Assembly: GCA_944332995.1 (NCBI GenBank)
Contig: CALVKR010000003.1
Coordinates: forward strand, 186,001 to 250,000
DNA: 64,000 nt
Origin: an uncultured Clostridia bacterium
GTDB taxonomy: Bacteria > Bacillota > Clostridia > Christensenellales > CAG-917
Reading direction: 5' to 3'
Part shown: positions 12,251 to 30,330 of the stretch, piece by piece
How positions within the stretch are numbered: position 1 is the stretch's first letter
Layout of the letters: every line of letters begins with the position of its first letter
Notes under the pieces: model-generated
Database searches by the model: none
What the model was told of the DNA's origin: nothing
Seen by the model: only the letters and a program-made list of their open reading frames with translations
Program-made: the position numbers and the translations under genes

Positions 12251-13738
12251 TTATCTTTTGCTCTTTGCCTTTGCCGCCCTGATAAGAGAAGGCAAAGTGG
12301 TCTTGTCAATGAGATTGAGCCCGAATTTGAGCGTTTCGAGCGCCGCCGCTCCCCTTTTCGGATTTGCCTTTTCGACGGGCGTATATTCCACTCCGCATTT
12401 GCCGAGGACGTTGAGCGCAGACGGCAGTCTCATCATAAAGGCGTCGTAATCGGCGTTTGACGACCATGCCCTCTCCGCCACCGCCAAAAGACGGGGGAAC
12501 ATCTGCCTTAGCGCTTTAGTTTCGCTGTCCACAAACTCCGTCCAAAGAGGGGCCTCCACGCCGAGCACGTTTTTCACTCCGTCGCTTGACAATCCGTCAA
12601 GAATGGGATTTAACTGATACACCGCCTTTAGAGAGTGCATTCCGTGCGGATAATCGAGATAATAAGGCGAAAATTTAGAAACGATAATCTTTCCTCCGCC
12701 GTCGGCAAATGCCAGCGTTTCTTTTAGCTTGCCCTGCCAATATTGGCACACCGCATCGTCGCTGACGCATTTTACGGCGTCGTTCCAGCAGATAACTTTT
12801 CTGCCTCTGTCCTTTAAATGACACTCCACTCGCCTGAGCATAAGCTCTTTTAACTCGTGATTGCTTTTTAGTTTGTATTCTTTTTTTGTTTTCTGACATT
12901 CAGGACATTTTGACCATACCGAAAGATCCGACTCGTCGCCGCCTATATGGATATACTTTGACGGAAAGACTTCGATTATCTCGTCAAACAGGTCAAACAA
13001 AAATTTATAGGTTTTGTCTTTGCCTGCGCAGAGAGTATGCCCGAGTATCCCGAAAAATTCGTCCACCTTTTTCGTCTTGCCCTCGCATGAGAGGTTAGGA
13101 TAGGACGCCAATATCGCTCCCGTATGGGCAGGTATATCCACCTCGGGGATAATTTCTATATGCCTTTCGGCGGCATAGCTGACAATATCGCAAAGCTCGG
13201 CTTTTGTGTAATATCCGCCGTGCTCTACGTTGTCGCCTCTCGTGCCCTCTCTTTTCGAGCCCACCTCGACGAGCTTTTCAAACTTTTTTGAACCGAATCT
13301 GAAGCCCTGATCGTCGCTGAGGTGCAAATGCAGGCGGTTAAATTTAAACAGAGCGAGAGTGTCGATGATTTTTTTTATAAATTCCGCACTGAAAAAATGC
13401 CTTGCAGTGTCCAGCATAAAGCCTCGGTATGCAAACCTCGGTTTATCTTCTATCTCGACGCATGGCAGAACGGAGCCTGTCAAAAGCATATATTTAAGGC
13501 TCATCGTCGCCCAGAAGAAACCCTCTGCGCCTGACGCTTCCACCTTTACGCCGTCCTCTTTAACGCTCAGTTTATACCCCTCAATCTGCGCCTTTTCGTA
13601 TACGACGGAGCCGCCGCCTGCGCTTCCCGTTTCCGGAAGAAATTTTTTGTATTTTAAAGCCTCCTCGGAAAAGACGGTCGCTTTTCCGAAGACAAATTCC
13701 CCTTGAGTGATTTTCATGTAGTCGGGATTGGGTATCAT
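12251..13738 (-). CDS. Beta-N-acetylhexosaminidase, GH20 family
   Basis: A 495-residue protein with an N-terminal GH20b-like alpha/beta domain (about 1-95) and a catalytic TIM barrel from YRGFMLD at 104. The motif HIGGDES carries the catalytic Asp268-Glu269 pair used for substrate-assisted cleavage of terminal GlcNAc or GalNAc. HLHLSDDQGF (137-146), RHIEIIPEVDIPAHT (192-206) and the late WTEFV segment match the family. There is no signal peptide, so it appears to be an intracellular enzyme acting on imported glycans or muropeptides. The start is not fully settled: AAAGGA lies 11 nt from this ATG, and Met8 is an alternative. A PIG-L deacetylase follows on the same strand. Confidence 0.92.
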   Translation of the reverse strand: MIPNPDYMKITQGEFVFGKATVFSEEALKYKKFLPETGSAGGGSVVYEKAQIEGYKLSVKEDGVKVEASGAEGFFWATMSLKYMLLTGSVLPCVEIEDKPRFAYRGFMLDTARHFFSAEFIKKIIDTLALFKFNRLHLHLSDDQGFRFGSKKFEKLVEVGSKREGTRGDNVEHGGYYTKAELCDIVSYAAERHIEIIPEVDIPAHTGAILASYPNLSCEGKTKKVDEFFGILGHTLCAGKDKTYKFLFDLFDEIIEVFPSKYIHIGGDESDLSVWSKCPECQKTKKEYKLKSNHELKELMLRRVECHLKDRGRKVICWNDAVKCVSDDAVCQYWQGKLKETLAFADGGGKIIVSKFSPYYLDYPHGMHSLKAVYQLNPILDGLSSDGVKNVLGVEAPLWTEFVDSETKALRQMFPRLLAVAERAWSSNADYDAFMMRLPSALNVLGKCGVEYTPVEKANPKRGAAALETLKFGLNLIDKTTLPSLIRAAKAKSKR

Positions 13739-14410: not shown

Positions 14411-14890
14411 ATGAAAGCGAGCGGCTGTATTTTAGGACTTGTGGCAGGCAGAGTGTTCTCCGTGGTATGGATGATACTCGAGCTTGTATTTACCGTCATA
14501 GCCAAGGTTATAATATATTTCGGACTCTATTTTCCCATGCTCAGCCTGATATTCGGCGGAGTATTGTTTTTGATATTTGATTTCAATCCTTTCGGAGGAG
14601 GCGTCGATTCAAATCTTTACGTTTTCGGGCTATGTCTATCTTTTGTTTGCGCTCTCGTCGTTACGGTAAGGAACATAATCATTAAACCGATACAAAAATA
14701 TTTTATTGACAGCAAGGTTATCGAATACACGGGTAAACGCCACAAAAACGCACCCGAAGCTCCGAAAATATATAAGAGCAAGGTGAACCCCGGTATTATC
14801 GTATACGAATACGAAAACCGATATGACCTCTATGAGGAGGAAAACGGCGAGCTATACAAAGTCTCGACGGAATACAAGGACAGACGATGA
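14411..14890 (+). CDS. Small membrane protein of unknown function
   Basis: A 159-residue protein with three hydrophobic segments (about 5-25, 28-55 and 75-95) and a soluble, charged, Tyr/Glu-rich C-terminal third. I do not recognise a family. No ribosome site precedes the ATG, but a good promoter ends 6 nt upstream, so the start fits a leaderless mRNA. Its last four bases (ATGA) overlap the start of the next gene, so the two are translationally coupled. The C-terminal part is probably cytoplasmic. A supporting role for its coupled partner, the HGSNAT-like protein, is inference. Confidence 0.75.
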   Translation: MKASGCILGLVAGRVFSVVWMILELVFTVIAKVIIYFGLYFPMLSLIFGGVLFLIFDFNPFGGGVDSNLYVFGLCLSFVCALVVTVRNIIIKPIQKYFIDSKVIEYTGKRHKNAPEAPKIYKSKVNPGIIVYEYENRYDLYEEENGELYKVSTEYKDRR

Positions 14891-15834
14891 GCAAGATAAA
14901 CTTTTTGGACGCTCCGTCGCTTATCCCTTTTCCTACAAAGACGTATTTGAAAGTGGACGGAGCGTTTTTAGACGAACAACCCAAAACGCTGCCCCGCATA
15001 TGGGAAATCGATTTTTTAAGAGGACTTTGCATCCTGCTTATGATAATCGACCACTTCTTCTTTTTGGGATATCACATCTACGGCGCCGCCCTTTCGCAGA
15101 CGGCGTCGGGGTATGAATTCGTCGAGTTTTGCTATTTCTATTGGTATCAAAGCCCGAGGGACGTGATACACGTTATAGTTTTGTTTTTCTTCTTCTCTCT
15201 TTCGGGAATATCGTGCTATCTTTCCCGCTCGAATCTGAAGCGAGGTTTCGGACTTGCCTATATCTCGTTTTGCTATTCCCTTATAACTCTCGAGGTGGAC
15301 AACCTTTTCGACGTCGGTTGCTATTCCGGATACGGCGTGCTGAACTTCCTTGCCACATGTATATTGATATACGCCGTCGTGGAAATGCTCTGTCGCAAAA
15401 ACAACATTGCGCTGTGGGCAATAGGCAGCGTTTCGGCTATTGCCGTCACAATCGTATTCTTTTGCTATACGCCGCCGTCCGACCTCGATATAAAATGGGC
15501 GTGGCTTTTTCCGACAAAATACTTTGAGGGACTTAACATGCTCGACTACTCATGCGCTTCCCCGTTCACTCAAGGTCAGATATCGCCCGGCGACTTCTTC
15601 CCGTTTATCCCCTATGCCGCTTTCTTTTTTGCCGGTATGGCGCTCGCTCCGCTTCTATACAAAAACAAGTGCTCGCTCATTCCCTCGCTCAACGGCAGGT
15701 GGAACAGAGCTATATGCGCTATCGGAAAATTTACCCTTGTCATTTATATTTTGCATATAGCCACCCTTGTATTGCTGTTTGAAATAATAACGCTTATCGC
15801 CACGGGACAGACCGTCATATTTAATTTTATTTGA
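14887..15834 (+). CDS. HGSNAT/DUF1624-like multi-spanning membrane protein
   Basis: A 315-residue protein. After about 40 soluble residues comes RIWEIDFLRGLCILLMIIDH, the R-x3-[LI]-D-x2-RG signature of the heparan-alpha-glucosaminide N-acetyltransferase catalytic domain (DUF1624). About seven further hydrophobic segments follow. In the animal homologue the membrane enzyme transfers acetyl groups from cytosolic acetyl-CoA to sugars on the far side of the membrane; bacterial members are largely uncharacterised, so acetylation of an envelope glycan is inference. The start codon overlaps the stop of the upstream membrane gene (ATGA). The -35 box of the next gene overlaps its own stop codon. Confidence 0.75.
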   Translation: MSKINFLDAPSLIPFPTKTYLKVDGAFLDEQPKTLPRIWEIDFLRGLCILLMIIDHFFFLGYHIYGAALSQTASGYEFVEFCYFYWYQSPRDVIHVIVLFFFFSLSGISCYLSRSNLKRGFGLAYISFCYSLITLEVDNLFDVGCYSGYGVLNFLATCILIYAVVEMLCRKNNIALWAIGSVSAIAVTIVFFCYTPPSDLDIKWAWLFPTKYFEGLNMLDYSCASPFTQGQISPGDFFPFIPYAAFFFAGMALAPLLYKNKCSLIPSLNGRWNRAICAIGKFTLVIYILHIATLVLLFEIITLIATGQTVIFNFI

Positions 15835-20228: not shown

Positions 20229-21368
20229 CTATTCAACTCTCTTCCACATATAAACAGAACAATAAGGCGGCAAATTGTTATGCGACCCTGAGCCGCCGCT
20301 CAAAGCGGTAACGATTGGCGAATAACTGTTACCAGTACGCGATTGCAGCGTTATACCGTAACCTACAGTGGTGCTCGGCTTACCGGATATTTTGTATTGA
20401 GGATTTATCACCTCATCGTAAATTCCGTCATGCCTGTGCGAAGGCAGTTCCGCCGTTGTCAATTTGTGGGTCGATTCTCCGCCTTCCGCACCTTCGGCAA
20501 AATTATCTCCTACGCCAACCAAGAATTTATCGCCGACACTTGCCCACACGCCTCCGAACAGAGTTGCGGGACTGACCGACGAGAAAGATATATAAACCGA
20601 ACCGACGGGATATACGTCCAAGGCGGTGATTGCGCCTATATTCCCTCTTGCGTAGGCTTTTTGCGATTCCGTAAAAGTCTGAGATACGGTTTTCACCGTA
20701 TTATTTCCCATTGCCTGAATTTGCTGTTCGCATTCTTCGATGCTCTGCTCGATACCGTCAATTGCAAGGGCGTTTGCCGTCGCCTTTTCCGAGACCAGCG
20801 AAACGGTGCTGTTTGTGGAAGATATTTGTTGTAAAATGGCACTTTTTTCCGAATTTATCTTGCTTTCAAGTTCGGTATAATCTTCCTGAACGGCAACGTT
20901 TAACTCGCTTATTGCCTGTTCCAATTCGTCGACGGCGCTTAAATGAACATCACTGTCAAGCTTTGTGTTTATTAAATCAAATAAATAACTTTTTTGCGCC
21001 TCGTTTACGTCAATCTGAGTGTCGAGCGAAGCATTGATTGATTTTCTGACGGTAACCCCCTTTATGACGGGGATAGTCTTATATACCGAATTGCTTGCTC
21101 TGTTATACATAACAAGCTGAAAATCAATCCGTCCGTAACTCTGCGTAAGCACTTTTGTCACGGAATATTCATAAAAATCCGCTTTTCGGCTCAAAGAGTC
21201 GACGTAAGTCTTGCCGCCCGGCAATTTAAATTCAAAAAAACAATTATACTCATCGTCGGGATCTATCTCGAGAGGAATTTTAAAAACCGTTTCTCTGTCT
21301 TCTCCCTGCACCAAAACCAAACCGTCGGCGAACAACGTTTTCGCCTCTTTGTCAAATATAAAGTTCAT
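20229..21368 (-). CDS. Phage tail collar/baseplate-like protein, orphan
   Basis: A 379-residue protein in three parts. The N-terminal 100 residues resemble BppU-type baseplate domains. A coiled-coil of about 90 residues (about 115-220) follows. The C-terminal part begins YPVGSVYISFSSVSPATLF, has GGVWASVGDKFLVG, the SHRHDG collar motif and a final NLPPYCSVYMWKR. That ending is the classic tail-collar/receptor-binding signature of phage tails. The ATG at 21368 has a GGAGG site 5 nt upstream; an upstream in-frame start at 21449 has none. No other phage structural, lysis, packaging or integrase gene is nearby, so this is an isolated cassette, either a remnant or a reused surface-binding protein. 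Confidence 0.82.
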   Translation of the reverse strand: MNFIFDKEAKTLFADGLVLVQGEDRETVFKIPLEIDPDDEYNCFFEFKLPGGKTYVDSLSRKADFYEYSVTKVLTQSYGRIDFQLVMYNRASNSVYKTIPVIKGVTVRKSINASLDTQIDVNEAQKSYLFDLINTKLDSDVHLSAVDELEQAISELNVAVQEDYTELESKINSEKSAILQQISSTNSTVSLVSEKATANALAIDGIEQSIEECEQQIQAMGNNTVKTVSQTFTESQKAYARGNIGAITALDVYPVGSVYISFSSVSPATLFGGVWASVGDKFLVGVGDNFAEGAEGGESTHKLTTAELPSHRHDGIYDEVINPQYKISGKPSTTVGYGITLQSRTGNSYSPIVTALSGGSGSHNNLPPYCSVYMWKRVE

Positions 21369-21688
21369 ATCTGCCTCCGCTACGAGAATATAATATCCGC
21401 TCAAATTTTTAAAATTTTTATGACAAAAAGCGCCGGCAGACAATATCAAACCATGCCGCTTGCAAGGTCTGCAAATTAGGCAAAAAATATCTTAAAAATC
21501 AAAGTGCTTTTGCAAATATAGCACTAACCGAAAAAATTAAAATTTAAAATGCGCCCAACGCCTGTCAGGCAGTTGCCCGAATTGTATTATATGCACAGCT
21601 ATTTAAAAACTTTAAAACAAATCCGGAAACGGAAAACAAATGAAAAAAACGGCAAAAGCCGTTTTAAATTTAAAATAATGTTTGATTG

Positions 21689-21941: not shown

Positions 21942-23813
21942 TTACGCCTCTGCGGTATCTTGATGATAGGTGGGAATTATTTCGTGAAGATATTCCTTTA
22001 CCTCTGCCGCCTTGTTATCGCGTGCCAGCTCGAGAAGGTGCTGAAGCTGTTTTGGGAAGGTCTTTTCGTCAATGTCTATCTGTTTGCAAATAAATATCTT
22101 TTTGTTGGTAGTCTTTCTCATACCCTCTCCGGAGATGAGAAGTTCTTCATACAGTTTCTCTCCCGGTCTGAGCCCTGTAAACACTATGGGTATTTCCTTA
22201 TACGGCTCGAATCCCGACAGCCTGATGAGGTTTTCGGCAAGGTCGAGTATCTTGACCGGCTGTCCCATATCTAAAACGAAAATCTCTCCTGTCTGCGAAT
22301 ATGTGCCCGTTTGCAAGACCAGCGATACCGCCTCGGGTATGGTCATAAAATATCTTATTATGTTTTTATCCGTAAGCGTGACGGGACCGCCCTCCGCTAT
22401 CTGCTTTTTAAAGAGCGGAATGACCGAGCCGTTGGAGCCGAGCACGTTTCCGAAACGGACGGCGCAGAACACGGTATCCTTACAGCGTTGAGCATGGTAT
22501 TTTACTATCATCTCACAGCAACGCTTTGAAGCGCCCATGACATTGGTGGGATTTACCGCCTTATCGGTGGATATGAGCAAAAATCTCTGCACCTTATATT
22601 TATCCGCCAGCTTGCACAAATTGAGCGTGCCTACAACGTTGTTTTTTATCGCCTGTTCGGGAACGTGTTCCATGAGCGGAACGTGCTTGTGCGCCGCTGC
22701 GTGGAAAACGATATCGGGGCGGTAGAGGTCAAACAATATGTCGCATTTGTCGTAGTCGGCAATAGAGCATATTTCCGTCATAAGGTCAAGAGAGGGATAG
22801 CCTCTTTTGAGTTCCTGCTGAATCTCATAGGCGTTGTTTTCGTAAATATCCAGAATGATGAGCTTTTGGGGCTCGAATTTCGCTATCTGACGGCAAAGCT
22901 CGCTTCCTATCGAGCCTCCTCCGCCCGTCACCATGACGACTTTTTCGTGAATATATTTTTTGACCTCCTTAAAGTCGAAAGTCATAGGTTCTCTGCCGAG
23001 AAGGTCCTCAATCCTGACGTCACGAGGTTGCGGAACAGCGTCCGAGCCGTCGACGAGCTCGTGAATGGGCGGAACGACTTTTAAAACGCACTTTGTAGCT
23101 ATACAAGCGTTTATTATCTTCTTTCTCGTTTCCATATCGCAGGACGGAATGGCAAAGATAATCTTTTTGATATGATAGCGGTATACCACTTTCTGAATAT
23201 CCTTTGTCGTTCCCGCCACAGGCAAATCGTTTATCTGCCTGCCCTGCTTTTCGTAGCTGTCGTCGACAAAACATACGGGTTTGAAAATCGAGGGATCATT
23301 GGTAAACTCTTTGGAGAGCGCCGAGCCCGTCCAGCCTGCGCCGATTATCAGGGTATTGTTCTTTGCCGATTGCTTTACGTCAAGGAGATGCTTTAGCTGA
23401 TGCTTTCTCAGATATAGCTGAACGACGAAAAGTTTTTCCCCTGACAACACGGCATAACACGTTACGACCATTACGTAATAATAGGTCGCTATCCAGCTTG
23501 CGTATCCGAACGTCAGAAAGGACAGCGCCGTGCCCACGACAAAATCAAGAGCAAGAATTGCAATTAAAATCAAGAACGGTTTTCCGCTAGCGAATTCCCA
23601 TAAAATTTTATTTAACTTGAAAGCGTATTGTAAAATAAAATAGACTACTATAAAATAAAGAGGCAAAGCAAGAAAATGCCTCCAATCGACGGGATAACCA
23701 AGCCCGAATTTATAGAACAACAATATCAATTCGGTCACGCCTGCGATAGAGAAAAAATCGAGGATAACCGATTTTTGCCGTTTTGTAAATTTAAGCATTT
23801 TGTTTTTTATCAT
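21942..23813 (-). CDS. CapD/PglF-type membrane nucleotide-sugar 4,6-dehydratase
   Basis: A 623-residue protein with four N-terminal membrane helices (about 15-125), a first Rossmann-like domain (about 145-270, NTLIIGAGWTGSALSKE) and a C-terminal SDR domain (about 285-590). The SDR domain has TGGGGSIGSELCRQ for NAD(P) binding and STDKAVNPTNVMGASKR, where Met stands in the catalytic Tyr position as in this subfamily. Known members (PglF, WbpM, CapD) remove water from UDP-GlcNAc to give the 4-keto-6-deoxy sugar used in capsules and protein glycans. The likely role is in surface polysaccharide synthesis, consistent with the ligase-like gene nearby. No clear ribosome site precedes the ATG; Met6 is an alternative start. 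Confidence 0.9.
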   Translation of the reverse strand: MIKNKMLKFTKRQKSVILDFFSIAGVTELILLFYKFGLGYPVDWRHFLALPLYFIVVYFILQYAFKLNKILWEFASGKPFLILIAILALDFVVGTALSFLTFGYASWIATYYYVMVVTCYAVLSGEKLFVVQLYLRKHQLKHLLDVKQSAKNNTLIIGAGWTGSALSKEFTNDPSIFKPVCFVDDSYEKQGRQINDLPVAGTTKDIQKVVYRYHIKKIIFAIPSCDMETRKKIINACIATKCVLKVVPPIHELVDGSDAVPQPRDVRIEDLLGREPMTFDFKEVKKYIHEKVVMVTGGGGSIGSELCRQIAKFEPQKLIILDIYENNAYEIQQELKRGYPSLDLMTEICSIADYDKCDILFDLYRPDIVFHAAAHKHVPLMEHVPEQAIKNNVVGTLNLCKLADKYKVQRFLLISTDKAVNPTNVMGASKRCCEMIVKYHAQRCKDTVFCAVRFGNVLGSNGSVIPLFKKQIAEGGPVTLTDKNIIRYFMTIPEAVSLVLQTGTYSQTGEIFVLDMGQPVKILDLAENLIRLSGFEPYKEIPIVFTGLRPGEKLYEELLISGEGMRKTTNKKIFICKQIDIDEKTFPKQLQHLLELARDNKAAEVKEYLHEIIPTYHQDTAEA

Positions 23814-24268: not shown

Positions 24269-26032
24269 TCATTCTTTGCTTTTGCCTTTTTGTTTTACGG
24301 ATTCCTGCTCCTCATCCGGGACAGGCGCACCGCTATCGGCGTCGGTAGACTCGGCTTTGTCTGCCGCCTTGTATATGGCGGACTCCGTCACCGTAACGGT
24401 CGCATCGCCTTCCGTCGGCTTAGCTTCCTCAGCCGTTTCCAAGCTCTTTGCCTCTCCCTCAACGGGAACGGGTTCGAGCTTCTTTTTTCTCTTTTCGTAG
24501 ACGGGCCACTCCCTCTCGCATCTTTCGTTGGAAAGTTCGACAAAGAAAGTGATAAACATCAGTATTATCATCGACGGCATCGGATTAAAGGTTCCCGTAT
24601 CTATCATGGAATATCCCTCGAACGCCAAAAGTCCGAGAAGAATGAAAATGTTGAAAACGTCCTTTTTGATAATGATTTTATATCTTCCTACATAGTTGTA
24701 AACGTATGCCGCAATGCCTACCAGTCCCATACAGGCGATGATTTGCAAGAGCGTCGAATGGAAGAAATAAAAGCCCATAGTTCCGCCGTCGTAGTTAGAC
24801 CCGAAATAGCCTATGCCCACGCCGAATATCGGATTGGTTTTAAAGCATTCCCACGCTTCCGCATAAAGCTCTTCCCTTCCGCTGCCTTCTATATGTCCGT
24901 CCGCTTTAAACGAATTGTTGATGACGCTGTTCAATAGCGAAGAAACCTTATCCCAGAACACGCCGACAAGTATTATCGCTATCAACACGAAGACGCCCAA
25001 AACTATCAGTATTTCTTTTTTACCCTTTTTAGGCGTTGCATAAAGCATGAAGGCAAGTTCAAAAGGCAACAATATCGTGGCGAACAAGATACCGCCTCTC
25101 GACAAACTCATTATCGTGACGATATATTGAATTCCGAAAAACACGGTATATATCCAGGGATGTTTGGATTTTGTTCCGAGATAAAGCGTCCCGGGAATAA
25201 GAAACATCAATGTGCTCGAAAAATTGTTTCCTATACACCAACCAAGCGACACCCTGCCGTTGTCGACGGCCATCTGGTCGGGAGCGATGATATAAGTGAC
25301 AAAGACCTCAAAGCATATTATAGCGGCAAAAGCCATAAGCGTTTTGCATAAATAATCTTTGACGCTCACCTCTTTGGGGAAACGTTCATAGCTTGAAAAT
25401 ACAAGATACAAAAGTAATATTAAAGCGCCCAAAAGCAATACCCAGGCTATGCCGTTGGCGTATTCTTCGGCGGACACGACGCCCACACCGCCCACGATAA
25501 GAGCAATGGATATGGCAAGCTGCGGAAAGAAGAATTTTTTGATTTTAAAGCCTCTGAAATATCTGATGACGTGATATATCAAAGCTATAGGTAAAGGCGC
25601 AAGTCCTATAAACGCCAAACCGTATTCTGCGGGATTCACTTCGGCAGGGAACATCGCTGAAACCATGACGAATATCGGAATAAGAGGCGTCACGTCTTCG
25701 ATGAAAATTAAAATGAACGCGCACAATAAAACGATTATAATTACTCCCGCCACTTCAGAACCGGGAACGAATTTGCCTAAAATCCAGAAAAAGGATATTA
25801 TGAAAGCAACAGTGGCAAAATACCAGCCTGAATATAAAAACTTGTTTAATAAGGCAATAAACTTTTGATATCCCGGCTTTTCCTCAAAAGGGAATTTTTT
25901 TATTTCTCTTTCTTTTTTAGCGATTATATCGTCCGATGAATCGACGCTCAGTTCAGCCTCGGGCTGTGTGATATTTGTTGCAAAAGTCGTTTCTTCGTTA
26001 CTTTCTATCGCAGGCGATTTTTCTCTTTTCAT
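24269..26032 (-). CDS. O-antigen ligase-like membrane protein
   Basis: A 587-residue protein: about 70 polar N-terminal residues, then some 12 membrane helices, then a 90-residue acidic Glu/Ala tail. The periplasm-facing loop with LSRGGILFATILLPFE and the segment NPIFGVGIGYFGSNY is typical of the Wzy/WaaL O-antigen ligase-polymerase family, which joins or polymerises lipid-linked glycans. The exact reaction cannot be told apart by sequence. I chose the ATG at 26032 (third codon of the longest frame) because a promoter ends 6 nt before it and there is no ribosome site. The CapD-like gene lies downstream on the same strand, after the small zinc-ribbon gene, supporting a role in surface glycans. 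Confidence 0.82.
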   Translation of the reverse strand: MKREKSPAIESNEETTFATNITQPEAELSVDSSDDIIAKKEREIKKFPFEEKPGYQKFIALLNKFLYSGWYFATVAFIISFFWILGKFVPGSEVAGVIIIVLLCAFILIFIEDVTPLIPIFVMVSAMFPAEVNPAEYGLAFIGLAPLPIALIYHVIRYFRGFKIKKFFFPQLAISIALIVGGVGVVSAEEYANGIAWVLLLGALILLLYLVFSSYERFPKEVSVKDYLCKTLMAFAAIICFEVFVTYIIAPDQMAVDNGRVSLGWCIGNNFSSTLMFLIPGTLYLGTKSKHPWIYTVFFGIQYIVTIMSLSRGGILFATILLPFELAFMLYATPKKGKKEILIVLGVFVLIAIILVGVFWDKVSSLLNSVINNSFKADGHIEGSGREELYAEAWECFKTNPIFGVGIGYFGSNYDGGTMGFYFFHSTLLQIIACMGLVGIAAYVYNYVGRYKIIIKKDVFNIFILLGLLAFEGYSMIDTGTFNPMPSMIILMFITFFVELSNERCEREWPVYEKRKKKLEPVPVEGEAKSLETAEEAKPTEGDATVTVTESAIYKAADKAESTDADSGAPVPDEEQESVKQKGKSKE

Positions 26033-26038
26033 AGGCAT

Positions 26039-26286: not shown

Positions 26287-26328
26287 ATACGGGTATGTGG
26301 GGAAAGACTTTTTAAACAGGAGACAATA

Positions 26329-28392
26329 ATGAGACTATTTTTAGGAATCGACCTTGACGCCTGCGAAGAACTTAAAGACTACAATTTAAAGGACTTGGTT
26401 CAACTCGAAAAGGCAATAAACTACATTCGTCTTAAAATAATTCAAAAACATCTTGACAACGGAGTTATTTTCCGCAATCTTACAAATATTTACATTTACG
26501 ATTCGGTTAAAATCGGCAAAGGAACCGTCATTTACGGAGACCAGCATATCAGAGGAAATACGGTCATAGGCGAAGACTGCATCTTAGAGCCCGGCAACAT
26601 AATCGAAAACACGACGCTCGGAAACGAAGTCAAAGTCATAAAAAGCGTGCTTAAAGACTGCCGTATAGACAACAAAACGACTGTCGGGCCCTATGCAAAT
26701 ATCCATACGGGTTCCAAAATCGAACGTCAATGCCGCGTCGGAAACTTTGTAGAAATCAAAAACTCCAACATAGGCGTAAACACGAAAATGGCGCACCTCG
26801 CCTATATCGGCGACGTCGATATCGGCAATCAGTGCAACATCGGCTGCGGCTCGATATTCATAAACTATGACGGCAAGAACAAACACCGCTCCTCCGTCGG
26901 AGACAGCGTGTTTATCGGCAGCAACAGCAATATCATAGCTCCCGTCACTATTGAGGACAACGCCTACATTGCGGCAGGCACTACCGTTACTGTTGACCTT
27001 CCCAAAAACAGTATGTGCATTGGCAGAAGCCACGAAACAATCAAAGAAAACCGCAGCACCTACCACAAAAACGTTTTCGACAAAAAGTTTTTCGGAACGG
27101 ACGGCATTCGCGGCGTTTACGGAGAGGACCTCACCGACGAGATTGCATATCTCACGGGAAATTATCTCGGCTATTCCGCAAGCGGCGGCAAGGTCGTCTT
27201 GGGTAGAGATACCCGTCTGAGCGGCGAGGCTATCGCCAAACAACTTATAAAGGGTATAACCGACGCAGGCGCCGACGTCATAAACGTCGGCGTGGTCTCC
27301 ACCCCTGCCGTAGCCTATGTAACTACGCATATAGGGGCAAACTACGGAGTGGTCATAAGCGCGTCGCACAATCCGGCTAAATATAACGGAATTAAAATTT
27401 TCAACTACGACGGCAGAAAGCTCACGGAAATCGAGGAGCTTGAAATAGAATCGCACATCACCAACAAAAACGTCATCATAAAAGAGGAAAAGGGTACGGA
27501 ATCTTCCGGAGCGGAATTTATGGATTCCTACTACGATTCGCTCAAGAATTTCATTGGCAGCCTCAAAAACGTCAAAGTCGTGCTTGACTGTGCAAACGGC
27601 GCTATATCCGACGTGGCACCCCGCTTTTTCAGAGAGCTCGGCGCCGAGGTATATTCCTTTAACGACTCGGGCGACGGCACTATAATCAACGACGGCTGCG
27701 GTGCCCTGCACCCCGAATTTTGCGCTCAAAAGGTTGTCGAGCTCGGCGCAAACGTAGGTTTTTCTTACGACGGCGATGCGGACAGACTTATAGCCATAAA
27801 CTCGAAGGGCAAAATTCTCGACGGCGACAGCATCATATACATTATCGCCAAACGCTTAAAACAGCAGAACAGACTCAACGGCGATAAGGTTGTCGGAACG
27901 ATTATGAGCAATATGGGCGTGGAACAGAGCCTCAAAAAACTCGGAATTTCAATGATAAGGACAAACGTCGGCGACCACTTCGTCATGGAAGAGATGATAC
28001 GAAACAATCTCTTGGTGGGCGGAGAACAATCGGGACACATTATTTTGAGAGAGTTTTCCAACACGGGCGACGGACTTTTGGCAAGTCTTTACCTTTGCAA
28101 GGTCATGAAGGAAACAAGGCGCCAGCTTGACAGACTCGACGACAGTGCCCATTATCCGCAGATTATGATAAATCTCGAGACGAACAACAAAAAACAAATC
28201 ATGGAAAGTCCCGAAATGCTCGCCTACAAGGTATCGCTCGAGCGTGACCTTTCCGACAAAGGCCGCATAGTCTTAAGAGCAAGCGGAACGGAACCTAAAA
28301 TCAGAATTATGGCGGAATGCAATAAATTATCGGTTGCAAAACAGGTTGTGGAAAAAATGAAGAAATTTATAACGGAACATTTTGAATTGTAA
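26329..28392 (+). CDS. Fusion of GlmU-type acetyltransferase and phosphoglucosamine mutase GlmM
   Basis: A single 687-codon frame. Residues 1-45 match the linker helix of GlmU, and about 46-240 form the left-handed beta-helix (hexapeptide repeats) of the GlmU acetyltransferase half. The active-site His156 (HLAYIGD), Lys144 and Asn179-Tyr180 (NYDG) are kept, but the phosphate-binding Arg of LRPG in E. coli GlmU is His126 (my alignment by eye). The uridylyltransferase half of GlmU is absent. Residues 253-687 are a complete GlmM: FFGTDGIRG, phospho-Ser346 in SASHNP, metal motif DGDADR and a late RASGTEPKIR. GlmM makes GlcN-1-P from GlcN-6-P and the first half would acetylate it, so two consecutive steps to GlcNAc-1-P are joined. 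UTP transfer must be done elsewhere. It converges on glmS. Confidence 0.92.
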   Translation: MRLFLGIDLDACEELKDYNLKDLVQLEKAINYIRLKIIQKHLDNGVIFRNLTNIYIYDSVKIGKGTVIYGDQHIRGNTVIGEDCILEPGNIIENTTLGNEVKVIKSVLKDCRIDNKTTVGPYANIHTGSKIERQCRVGNFVEIKNSNIGVNTKMAHLAYIGDVDIGNQCNIGCGSIFINYDGKNKHRSSVGDSVFIGSNSNIIAPVTIEDNAYIAAGTTVTVDLPKNSMCIGRSHETIKENRSTYHKNVFDKKFFGTDGIRGVYGEDLTDEIAYLTGNYLGYSASGGKVVLGRDTRLSGEAIAKQLIKGITDAGADVINVGVVSTPAVAYVTTHIGANYGVVISASHNPAKYNGIKIFNYDGRKLTEIEELEIESHITNKNVIIKEEKGTESSGAEFMDSYYDSLKNFIGSLKNVKVVLDCANGAISDVAPRFFRELGAEVYSFNDSGDGTIINDGCGALHPEFCAQKVVELGANVGFSYDGDADRLIAINSKGKILDGDSIIYIIAKRLKQQNRLNGDKVVGTIMSNMGVEQSLKKLGISMIRTNVGDHFVMEEMIRNNLLVGGEQSGHIILREFSNTGDGLLASLYLCKVMKETRRQLDRLDDSAHYPQIMINLETNNKKQIMESPEMLAYKVSLERDLSDKGRIVLRASGTEPKIRIMAECNKLSVAKQVVEKMKKFITEHFEL

Positions 28393-28533: not shown

Positions 28534-30330
28534 CTATTCTACCGTGACCGACTTTGCAAGATTTCTCGGACGGTCGGGATTGTAACCTTTATATACCGAC
28601 ACCATATAAGAGAGCATCTGCATGGGAATAATGGAAAACAGCGGAGACAGCTCCACGTCGACCTTAGGCGCCGCCATGACGTCCTTTTCGGACACGGCAA
28701 AATCCTTTAGGTTGAGCGAGGTAAAATAAATGAGTTTCGCTCCTCTTGCTTTTGCCTGTTCGACGATGTTGAGCGTTTTGGATATAAGTTTAGGTTCGGT
28801 AACTATGGCAAGCATTGTGGTTCCGTCTTCAACAAGTGCGATTGTTCCGTGTTTTAGTTCACCCGCCGCATAAGCCTCGCAGGGAATGTATGAAATTTCT
28901 TTAAGCTTTAAACAGCTTTCGAGGCAGGTGATATAATCCATATGTCTGCCCACAAAATAAATGGAACTCGAGTTTGCCACTCTCTTTACGAATTTTTTTG
29001 CACTTGCCCACATACCGTCGAGGTCTATCGACGCCGCCTGGCTCAATATTTTTTCGGCGATGTCCTTATAATCGCCGTCACGCAGAAAATCGGCAAGAAT
29101 CATCATGACGGTAACTTGAGCGTTGTATGCTTTAGTCGACGCCACGGCGACTTCCACTCCTGCGCATATGGGCAGGCAGACGTCGCATTCCGAGGCAAGA
29201 TTGCTTGTCATAACGTTGGTTATGCCAAGCGACTTAGCGCCTCTTTCTTTCGCCACCCTTACGGCGTGGAGCGTATCCGCCGTTTCGCCCGATTGACTTA
29301 CGAACACGCATAGCGTGTTTTTATTTAACAGCGGAGGATTATAAACGAATTCGCTGGCGAGATGCGTTCTTGCAACCTTGTGAGCGTTATCCTCGGTGAA
29401 CATAGCTCCCACCATGCTGGCGTGATAGCTCGTTCCGCAAGCGATAAATTCTATCTTTTCTATATCCTGCCAAAAACTTTTGTCGACTTTGGATATGGGA
29501 TTATCTTCGTTTAAATATATCTTTACAGTATTCTCTATGACGGTGGGTATCTCGTTTATTTCCTTTTGCATAAAGTGCGCATTGTCGCCTTTTTGCGCCC
29601 TCTCGCTGTGGGAAATCATCGATTTAAACTCAAGGCAGACGTCGCTTCCGCTTTCCTCGAACGCCTTTACCTCATCTTTGTTTATGTATCCGTAAACGCC
29701 GTTGGGGACGACTACGTATTCGGAGCAGCTTTTGCCGAGCCCCAAAACGTCGCTGGAAATAAAGGTTTCGCCGTCGCCCTTGCCGATAAGCAAAGGACTC
29801 TCCTTTCTCGCAAAATAAATTGTATCGGGAGTGTCGAGCGCAAGCATTGCCACGGCATACGAGCCCTGAAGATTTTTCAATGTTTCGCAAAGCGCTTCCA
29901 AAACGGAAAGCTTAGGATTTACTATTCGGAAATACGCTACGAGATTTACGATAGACTCCGTATCGACGTTGGTTCTGAAAGGGATATCCTTTAAAATTCC
30001 GTCCTTTATCACGGCATAGTTTTCTATAATGCCGTTGTGGACAAGCGAAAATCTGTTATCAAAACTTATGTGAGGGTGAGCGTTCTTTTCGCACACCTCG
30101 CCGTGAGTAGCCCACCTAGTGTGCCCTATTCCGCAGTGGGTATCTGTAGGACAGGTTATGCTGTCAAACAAATTGGCAACACTGCCCACCCTTTTTTGAA
30201 TTTGAATTGCCCCGTCGTGAATATAACTTATGCCTGCCGAGTCGTAACCCCTGTATTCGACGCTGAGCAATCCCTCTTTTATATTTTCAACACAGTCGTT
30301 TTTACCTAAATAGCCAACAATTCCGCACAT
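28534..30330 (-). CDS. glmS: Glutamine-fructose-6-phosphate aminotransferase (GlmS)
   Basis: A 598-residue protein of normal length. It begins MCGIVGYLG, with the Cys2 nucleophile of the glutaminase domain, followed by EYRGYDSAGI and GHTRWATHG. Two SIS sugar-isomerase domains follow from about 280 (FIACGTSYHASMVG, VFVSQSGETADT), and the C-terminus is RPRNLAKSVTVE. The enzyme makes GlcN-6-P, the substrate of the GlmM half of the fusion gene with which it converges. An AAGGAAA ribosome site precedes the ATG. It has its own promoter about 95 nt upstream; the leader is too short for a glmS ribozyme and I see no ribozyme core. Confidence 0.97.
   Translation of the reverse strand: MCGIVGYLGKNDCVENIKEGLLSVEYRGYDSAGISYIHDGAIQIQKRVGSVANLFDSITCPTDTHCGIGHTRWATHGEVCEKNAHPHISFDNRFSLVHNGIIENYAVIKDGILKDIPFRTNVDTESIVNLVAYFRIVNPKLSVLEALCETLKNLQGSYAVAMLALDTPDTIYFARKESPLLIGKGDGETFISSDVLGLGKSCSEYVVVPNGVYGYINKDEVKAFEESGSDVCLEFKSMISHSERAQKGDNAHFMQKEINEIPTVIENTVKIYLNEDNPISKVDKSFWQDIEKIEFIACGTSYHASMVGAMFTEDNAHKVARTHLASEFVYNPPLLNKNTLCVFVSQSGETADTLHAVRVAKERGAKSLGITNVMTSNLASECDVCLPICAGVEVAVASTKAYNAQVTVMMILADFLRDGDYKDIAEKILSQAASIDLDGMWASAKKFVKRVANSSSIYFVGRHMDYITCLESCLKLKEISYIPCEAYAAGELKHGTIALVEDGTTMLAIVTEPKLISKTLNIVEQAKARGAKLIYFTSLNLKDFAVSEKDVMAAPKVDVELSPLFSIIPMQMLSYMVSVYKGYNPDRPRNLAKSVTVE

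Follow-up and report, generated by a model that had tools for sequence, protein, structure and literature searches.

The acetyltransferase half of GlmU is joined to a complete GlmM in one gene of an uncultured, gut-type Clostridia bacterium. The fusion is real, conserved and recurrent, and its product would almost certainly be a bifunctional enzyme that converts GlcN-6-P to GlcNAc-1-P. The explanation that likely covers the whole is that this bifunctional fusion formed after the uridylyltransferase domain of GlmU decayed, and that the last step is carried out by another protein, most probably one of the GalU family. The gene lies in the window, which is the whole stretch of 64,000 nucleotides that was analysed. 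Coordinates are given in Table 1.

Table 1. Features of the fusion gene, its surroundings and related loci. Positions are those of the window unless another contig is named.
Feature	Position	Strand	Basis
Likely ribosome-binding site (caggagac), AGGAG-type, ahead of the fusion-gene ATG	26312..26326	+	Sequence reading
Fusion gene, 687 aa, GlmU-type acetyltransferase and GlmM	26329..28392	+	ORF/translation; NCBIfam/Pfam; AlphaFold model
Acetyltransferase half, residues 1-245, helix 23-43 then left-handed beta-helix	26329..27063	+	NF010934, TIGR01173, PDB GlmU chains, model
His126, matching Arg333 of GlmU in E. coli numbering	26704..26706	+	Alignment of 71 acetyltransferase domains
His156, equivalent of the GlmU acetyltransferase catalytic His	26794..26796	+	Invariant in 71/71 sequences
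Inter-domain linker, residues 241-252	27049..27084	+	Lowest inner pLDDT of the model; no Pfam domain there
Complete GlmM, residues 253-687	27085..28389	+	TIGR01455; motif residues; Foldseek GlmM matches
glmS, preceding pathway enzyme, convergent neighbour	28534..30330	-	SIS and glutamine amidotransferase domains
GalU of the window genome	G000 C2:261223-262119 (L007 1432-2328)	-	Changed sugar-pocket residues
Fusion genomes among the matches listed: G000 (f1, window genome); G268 (f24); G278 (f28)
Fusion genomes of f5 among the matches listed: G091, G243, G170, G348, G397, G263, G316

The open reading frame is uninterrupted and starts with ATG. Residues 20-241 of its product correspond to the C-terminal half of GlmU (267 bits with NF010934, positions 223-444). 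TIGR01173 matches the same half with profile positions 225-448, and the GlmU chains in the PDB align with it from residue 225 onward. Helix 23-43 of the fusion is the linker helix that in GlmU comes after the uridylyltransferase. As a whole, the fusion scores 244 bits against the GlmU equivalog TIGR01173, below the cut-off of 366.85, and the N-terminal uridylyltransferase domain is absent. Residues 255-681 are GlmM from end to end: TIGR01455 gives 457.5 bits with a cut-off of 447.55, and covers positions 1-440 of 442. The AlphaFold model (mean pLDDT 92.4) has two confident domains with a weak linker at about 241-250. A beta-helix is followed by a four-domain mutase, and a Foldseek search of the PDB with this model leads to GlmM structures. 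NF010934, TIGR01455 and the model thus bear out the original prediction of an acetyltransferase half and a complete GlmM in one reading frame.

The genome of the window measures 1.54 Mb and is 98.7% complete; it was found to contain no other GlmM or GlmU. It had been proposed that UTP transfer is left to another protein, and that the genome be checked for a second GlmU or GlmM and for a stand-alone uridylyltransferase. No uridylyltransferase of the GlmU type was detected in this genome, stand-alone or otherwise, nor in any of the 33 sampled genomes of its family. Across the order, one was detected in 59 of 396 sampled genomes (42 of the 329 of good quality), with weak matches in families f3 and f10; the query was an intact uridylyltransferase of the order, and very divergent copies may escape the cut-off. 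Since the genome is without this domain, it is nearly certain that another enzyme must complete UDP-GlcNAc, and that the uridylyltransferase has been replaced by a different protein.

In relatives there are GlmU-like genes, 330-400 residues long, in which the N-terminus has shrunk. Two of these contain clearly decayed uridylyltransferases (L142, E 2.6e-23, and L135, E 2.9e-11), and in other remnants nothing but the stretch surrounding the Asp-x-Pro-Leu motif is left. In the alignment, the remnants have lost the LAAGxGxRM nucleotide-binding signature and the GTGHA, GYGR and EKDA motifs. A structural model of one remnant has a weak likeness to GlmU and to other nucleotidyltransferases. Genome G046 has a split GlmU with both halves retained, and carries two genes for stand-alone uridylyltransferases of the GlmU type, each about 250 residues long, L240 (C7:24603-25262) and C4:37456-38145.

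The fusion was looked for in one genome per species, over 84,980 species. Once duplicate entries in the collections are merged, 13 distinct fused genes remain. Eight belong to the window type, and all come from uncultured Clostridia or from MAGs named Christensenella. Mapped across relatives, as the original prediction had suggested, stop-free fusions are present in at least 10 of the 396 sampled genomes of the order, in four families. In many families a separate acetyltransferase gene of about 200-350 residues sits immediately 5' of glmM, sometimes with glmS after that.

A single origin is rejected on the concatenated acetyltransferase and GlmM sequences (p-AU 0.0145), and still is when the long-branch row L050 is removed (p-AU 0.0169). 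The same test is borderline on GlmM alone (p-AU 0.051) and gives no rejection on the acetyltransferase alone (p-AU 0.58). The rejection on the concatenated data, on whose tree the fusions form three groups, points to at least two separate fusion events. The fused proteins also differ in where they start, at about residues 1-20, 48 or 58 in the numbering of the window protein. The members of the window's fusion clade carry three different family codes, suggesting that the fusion moved horizontally within it.

The nucleotidyltransferases of the window genome are GalU, GlgC, GlgD, IspD, a 603-residue nucleotidyltransferase-aminotransferase and a stand-alone protein of 231 residues. The 603-residue protein (L009 1495-3306, plus strand, on G000 C5) is a fusion of a LicC-like nucleotidyltransferase and a CobD/HisC-type aminotransferase. 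The best candidate for the replacement is the GalU-family enzyme, and on balance it is probably the right one. It is favoured because it is nearly universal in the family, because of its gene clusters, and because its sequences divide according to whether the genome keeps the GlmU domain, with changes in the sugar pocket.

Within the family, 31 of the 33 genomes sampled have GalU, and the two that lack it are 79% and 86% complete. The two larger fusion clades have nine sampled genomes between them, all with GalU. In genus g99 (G197) the gene order is acetyltransferase-glmM-glmS-galU, and the glmM-galU spacing in G208 and G400 matches this cluster. In genus g8, galU and glmM adjoin tail to tail. 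In the window genome galU is beside galE, as for an ordinary UDP-glucose enzyme.

The GalU of the window genome scores 323.6 bits with TIGR01099, just below the cut-off of 326.8. It has GSGWAV in place of GLGHAV, SLGRF in place of AI/VxGRY, and GEIYLTD in place of GEIQLTD. Within the order, almost every sampled genome without the GlmU uridylyltransferase has a GalU changed in this way. The changes are L115 to S or T, I/V211 to S or N, and Q237 to Y, with L135 also changed. Position 115 is Leu in all 25 sampled GalU sequences from genomes with the GlmU domain, and Ser, Thr or Asn in 57 of the 59 from genomes without it. Position 211 aligns with Val204 of YngB, a predicted glucose contact (PMC7961091). 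With hhalign, positions 115, 211 and 237 pair with the GlmU motifs GTG(HA), EIN and GEYYLTD. This would mean that the sugar pocket of the candidate has moved partly towards that of GlmU, and that with the changes at these three positions it may take a 2-acetamido group.

On the GalU tree, the change is for the most part a single event. The association with GlmU loss is therefore mostly one ancestral coincidence, plus the independent case of G063 (L335), where no GlmU uridylyltransferase was detected and an otherwise canonical GalU has Leu115 to Ser and Leu135 to Asn. A canonical GalU is kept in G055 (L142), whose GlmU uridylyltransferase is decayed, and in G081 (L344), where none was detected; G086 and G250 are possible further exceptions. 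The phylogenetic profile of GalU across the order was tried as a way to decide the matter and set aside: GalU is found in 219 of the 396 genomes, including roughly half of those that keep the GlmU domain. By the cut-offs used, more than 100 sampled genomes, among them G042, G044, G062 and G085, have neither the GlmU domain nor GalU. No single replacement can therefore serve the entire order, and there must be others.

The uridylyl transfer could instead be performed by the 231-residue nucleotidyltransferase (G000 C8:8252-8947), with the same bifunctional fusion and with GalU making UDP-glucose only. This protein is a PF00483 enzyme that stands alone, with no partner domain, and is related to GMPP/HddC/MurU and, weakly, to GlmU. 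Close homologues that likewise stand alone (46-58% identical along most of the protein) occur in 10 of 26 genera without the GlmU domain and in none of the 8 with it, for a one-sided p of about 0.04 that ignores relatedness. It is however missing from g3, g4, g7 and g8, genera of the window genome's family that are also without the GlmU domain, and its conserved neighbours (RNase J, serC/serA) include no sugar genes. This makes it an unlikely choice next to a GalU-family enzyme. A different doubt concerns the fusion itself, which several relatives might seem to explain, as they have the two genes adjacent but separate: an assembly or frame error may have merged such neighbours. The original prediction had named an artefact at the junction near codon 245 as something to check. 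The same fusion is present in other assemblies (L044-L048), at 50-69% identity, in frame and with an identical junction. There are eight distinct window-type genes in several independent assemblies, all with this in-frame junction, and an artefact is rejected as wildly improbable.

The fusion could also be a vestige or a moonlighting protein. The equivalents of E. coli GlmU K351, H363, Y366, N377 and R440 are invariant in all 71 acetyltransferase domains aligned. The R333 position, which we take to be near the substrate's phosphate in published GlmU structures, is His in the eight-member fusion clade and its unfused sister G009 only. It is invariably Arg in the other 62 sequences, and the change to His could weaken the acetyltransferase activity. 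On this basis the acetyltransferase half might be weak or have another substrate, while UDP-GlcNAc is made through an unrecognised route. This is quite improbable given that within the clade every other acetyltransferase residue examined is invariant and that conservation of the domain is high (62-76% identity among fused homologues). Nor is there another candidate GlcN-1-P acetyltransferase in the genome, where other hexapeptide matches are weak. In the GlmM part, the phospho-Ser346, the metal loop DGDADR (481-486), the sugar loop GGEQSGH and the phosphate loop RASGTEP are all intact, and these motif residues are kept in essentially all of the 58 GlmM sequences aligned. A working bifunctional enzyme remains the preferred reading of the fusion.

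Two further candidates for the last step were rejected. UDPGP of the UAP1 type (PF01704) is absent from the window genome and occurs in only 3 of 60 relatives; these three genes (L154 in G053, L155 in G045 and L156 in G048) are in genomes without GalU and without an intact GlmU uridylyltransferase. GlmR/YvcK (TIGR01826/PF01933) was not found in the window genome, by a search that also missed it in the B. subtilis control and may have gaps. With that same silent control, it is apparently missing from 58 of 60 relatives, which is unusual for Firmicutes.

The original prediction also placed the gene next to glmS. The adjacency stands and an operon does not: glmS is on the opposite strand. The two are convergent, and are therefore tail-to-tail neighbours that are not co-transcribed. 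Other amino-sugar genes near the fusion are a GH20 beta-N-acetylhexosaminidase (12251-13738, minus strand) and a heparan-alpha-glucosaminide N-acetyltransferase-like membrane protein (14887-15834, plus strand). Just ahead of the fusion gene are a CapD-like polysaccharide biosynthesis protein (21942-23813) and a Wzy_C/O-antigen ligase (24269-26038), both on the minus strand. A protein with a C-terminal domain like phage baseplate Gp10_C is encoded at 20229-21449, also on the minus strand.

The pattern is larger than what was originally predicted. It comprises an order-wide loss of a GlmU domain, repeated fusion and an altered GalU. The proposed history runs from an intact GlmU to a shrunken remnant, then to a stand-alone acetyltransferase gene beside glmM, and finally to the in-frame fusion. 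In the resulting enzyme, the GlmM part would convert GlcN-6-P to GlcN-1-P, and the acetyltransferase part would turn this into GlcNAc-1-P. Another protein, most probably of the GalU family, would then combine GlcNAc-1-P with UTP to form UDP-GlcNAc. The benefit of the fusion may be the proximity or the fixed stoichiometry of its two active sites, and the two steps may conceivably be channelled, as the original prediction suggested. GlmM is a dimer and the GlmU acetyltransferase a trimer, so a larger dimer-by-trimer assembly would be expected. There is about an even chance that all of this holds together: decay of the GlmU uridylyltransferase across most of the order, replacement by a GalU with a pocket shifted towards GlmU, and at least two acetyltransferase-GlmM fusions that act as a dimer-by-trimer assembly from GlcN-6-P to GlcNAc-1-P.

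GlmU is a drug target that is regarded as essential to bacteria and found in all of them. A lineage without one of its domains would show that the last UDP-GlcNAc step is exchangeable. The recurrent fusion of GlmM with the acetyltransferase makes a direct test of channelling possible in this pathway. If it is true that GalU makes UDP-GlcNAc in these bacteria, then the annotation 'UTP--glucose-1-phosphate uridylyltransferase' is wrong or incomplete in many gut genomes. A search of the open-licence literature found no description of GlmU-GlmM fusions or of a bacterial order without the GlmU domain, and earlier notice elsewhere is possible.

That a protein different from GlmU can turn GlcNAc-1-P into UDP-GlcNAc has a precedent in GlmR/YvcK, a proven accessory uridyltransferase in Listeria (PMC10128056); unlike there, that protein was not found in the window genome or in nearly all sampled relatives, with the B. 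subtilis control silent. The candidate replacement belongs to the same family as GalU/YngB (TIGR01099; PMC7961091), from which it differs at L115, L135, I/V211 and Q237 in genomes without the GlmU domain. In RmlA, the L89T variant broadens the acceptance of sugar-1-phosphates (PMC9415975). Judging by motif position, this is a Leu to Thr change at the apparent equivalent of GalU position 115, although the RmlA variant is engineered and the enzyme is a thymidylyltransferase. Like the bifunctional GlmU of E. coli and S. pneumoniae (TIGR01173), the fusion has a left-handed beta-helix acetyltransferase, C-terminal in GlmU, with the catalytic His, Lys, Tyr, Asn and Arg and with the acetyl-CoA residues. 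It differs by lacking the N-terminal uridylyltransferase, by having His for the substrate-pocket residue R333, and by carrying the preceding enzyme GlmM at the C-terminus. That GlmM is full length, with all four domains and all motif residues of known GlmM proteins (TIGR01455; 3pdk, 6gyz, 7ojr), and is set apart from them by the extra acetyltransferase at its N-terminus.
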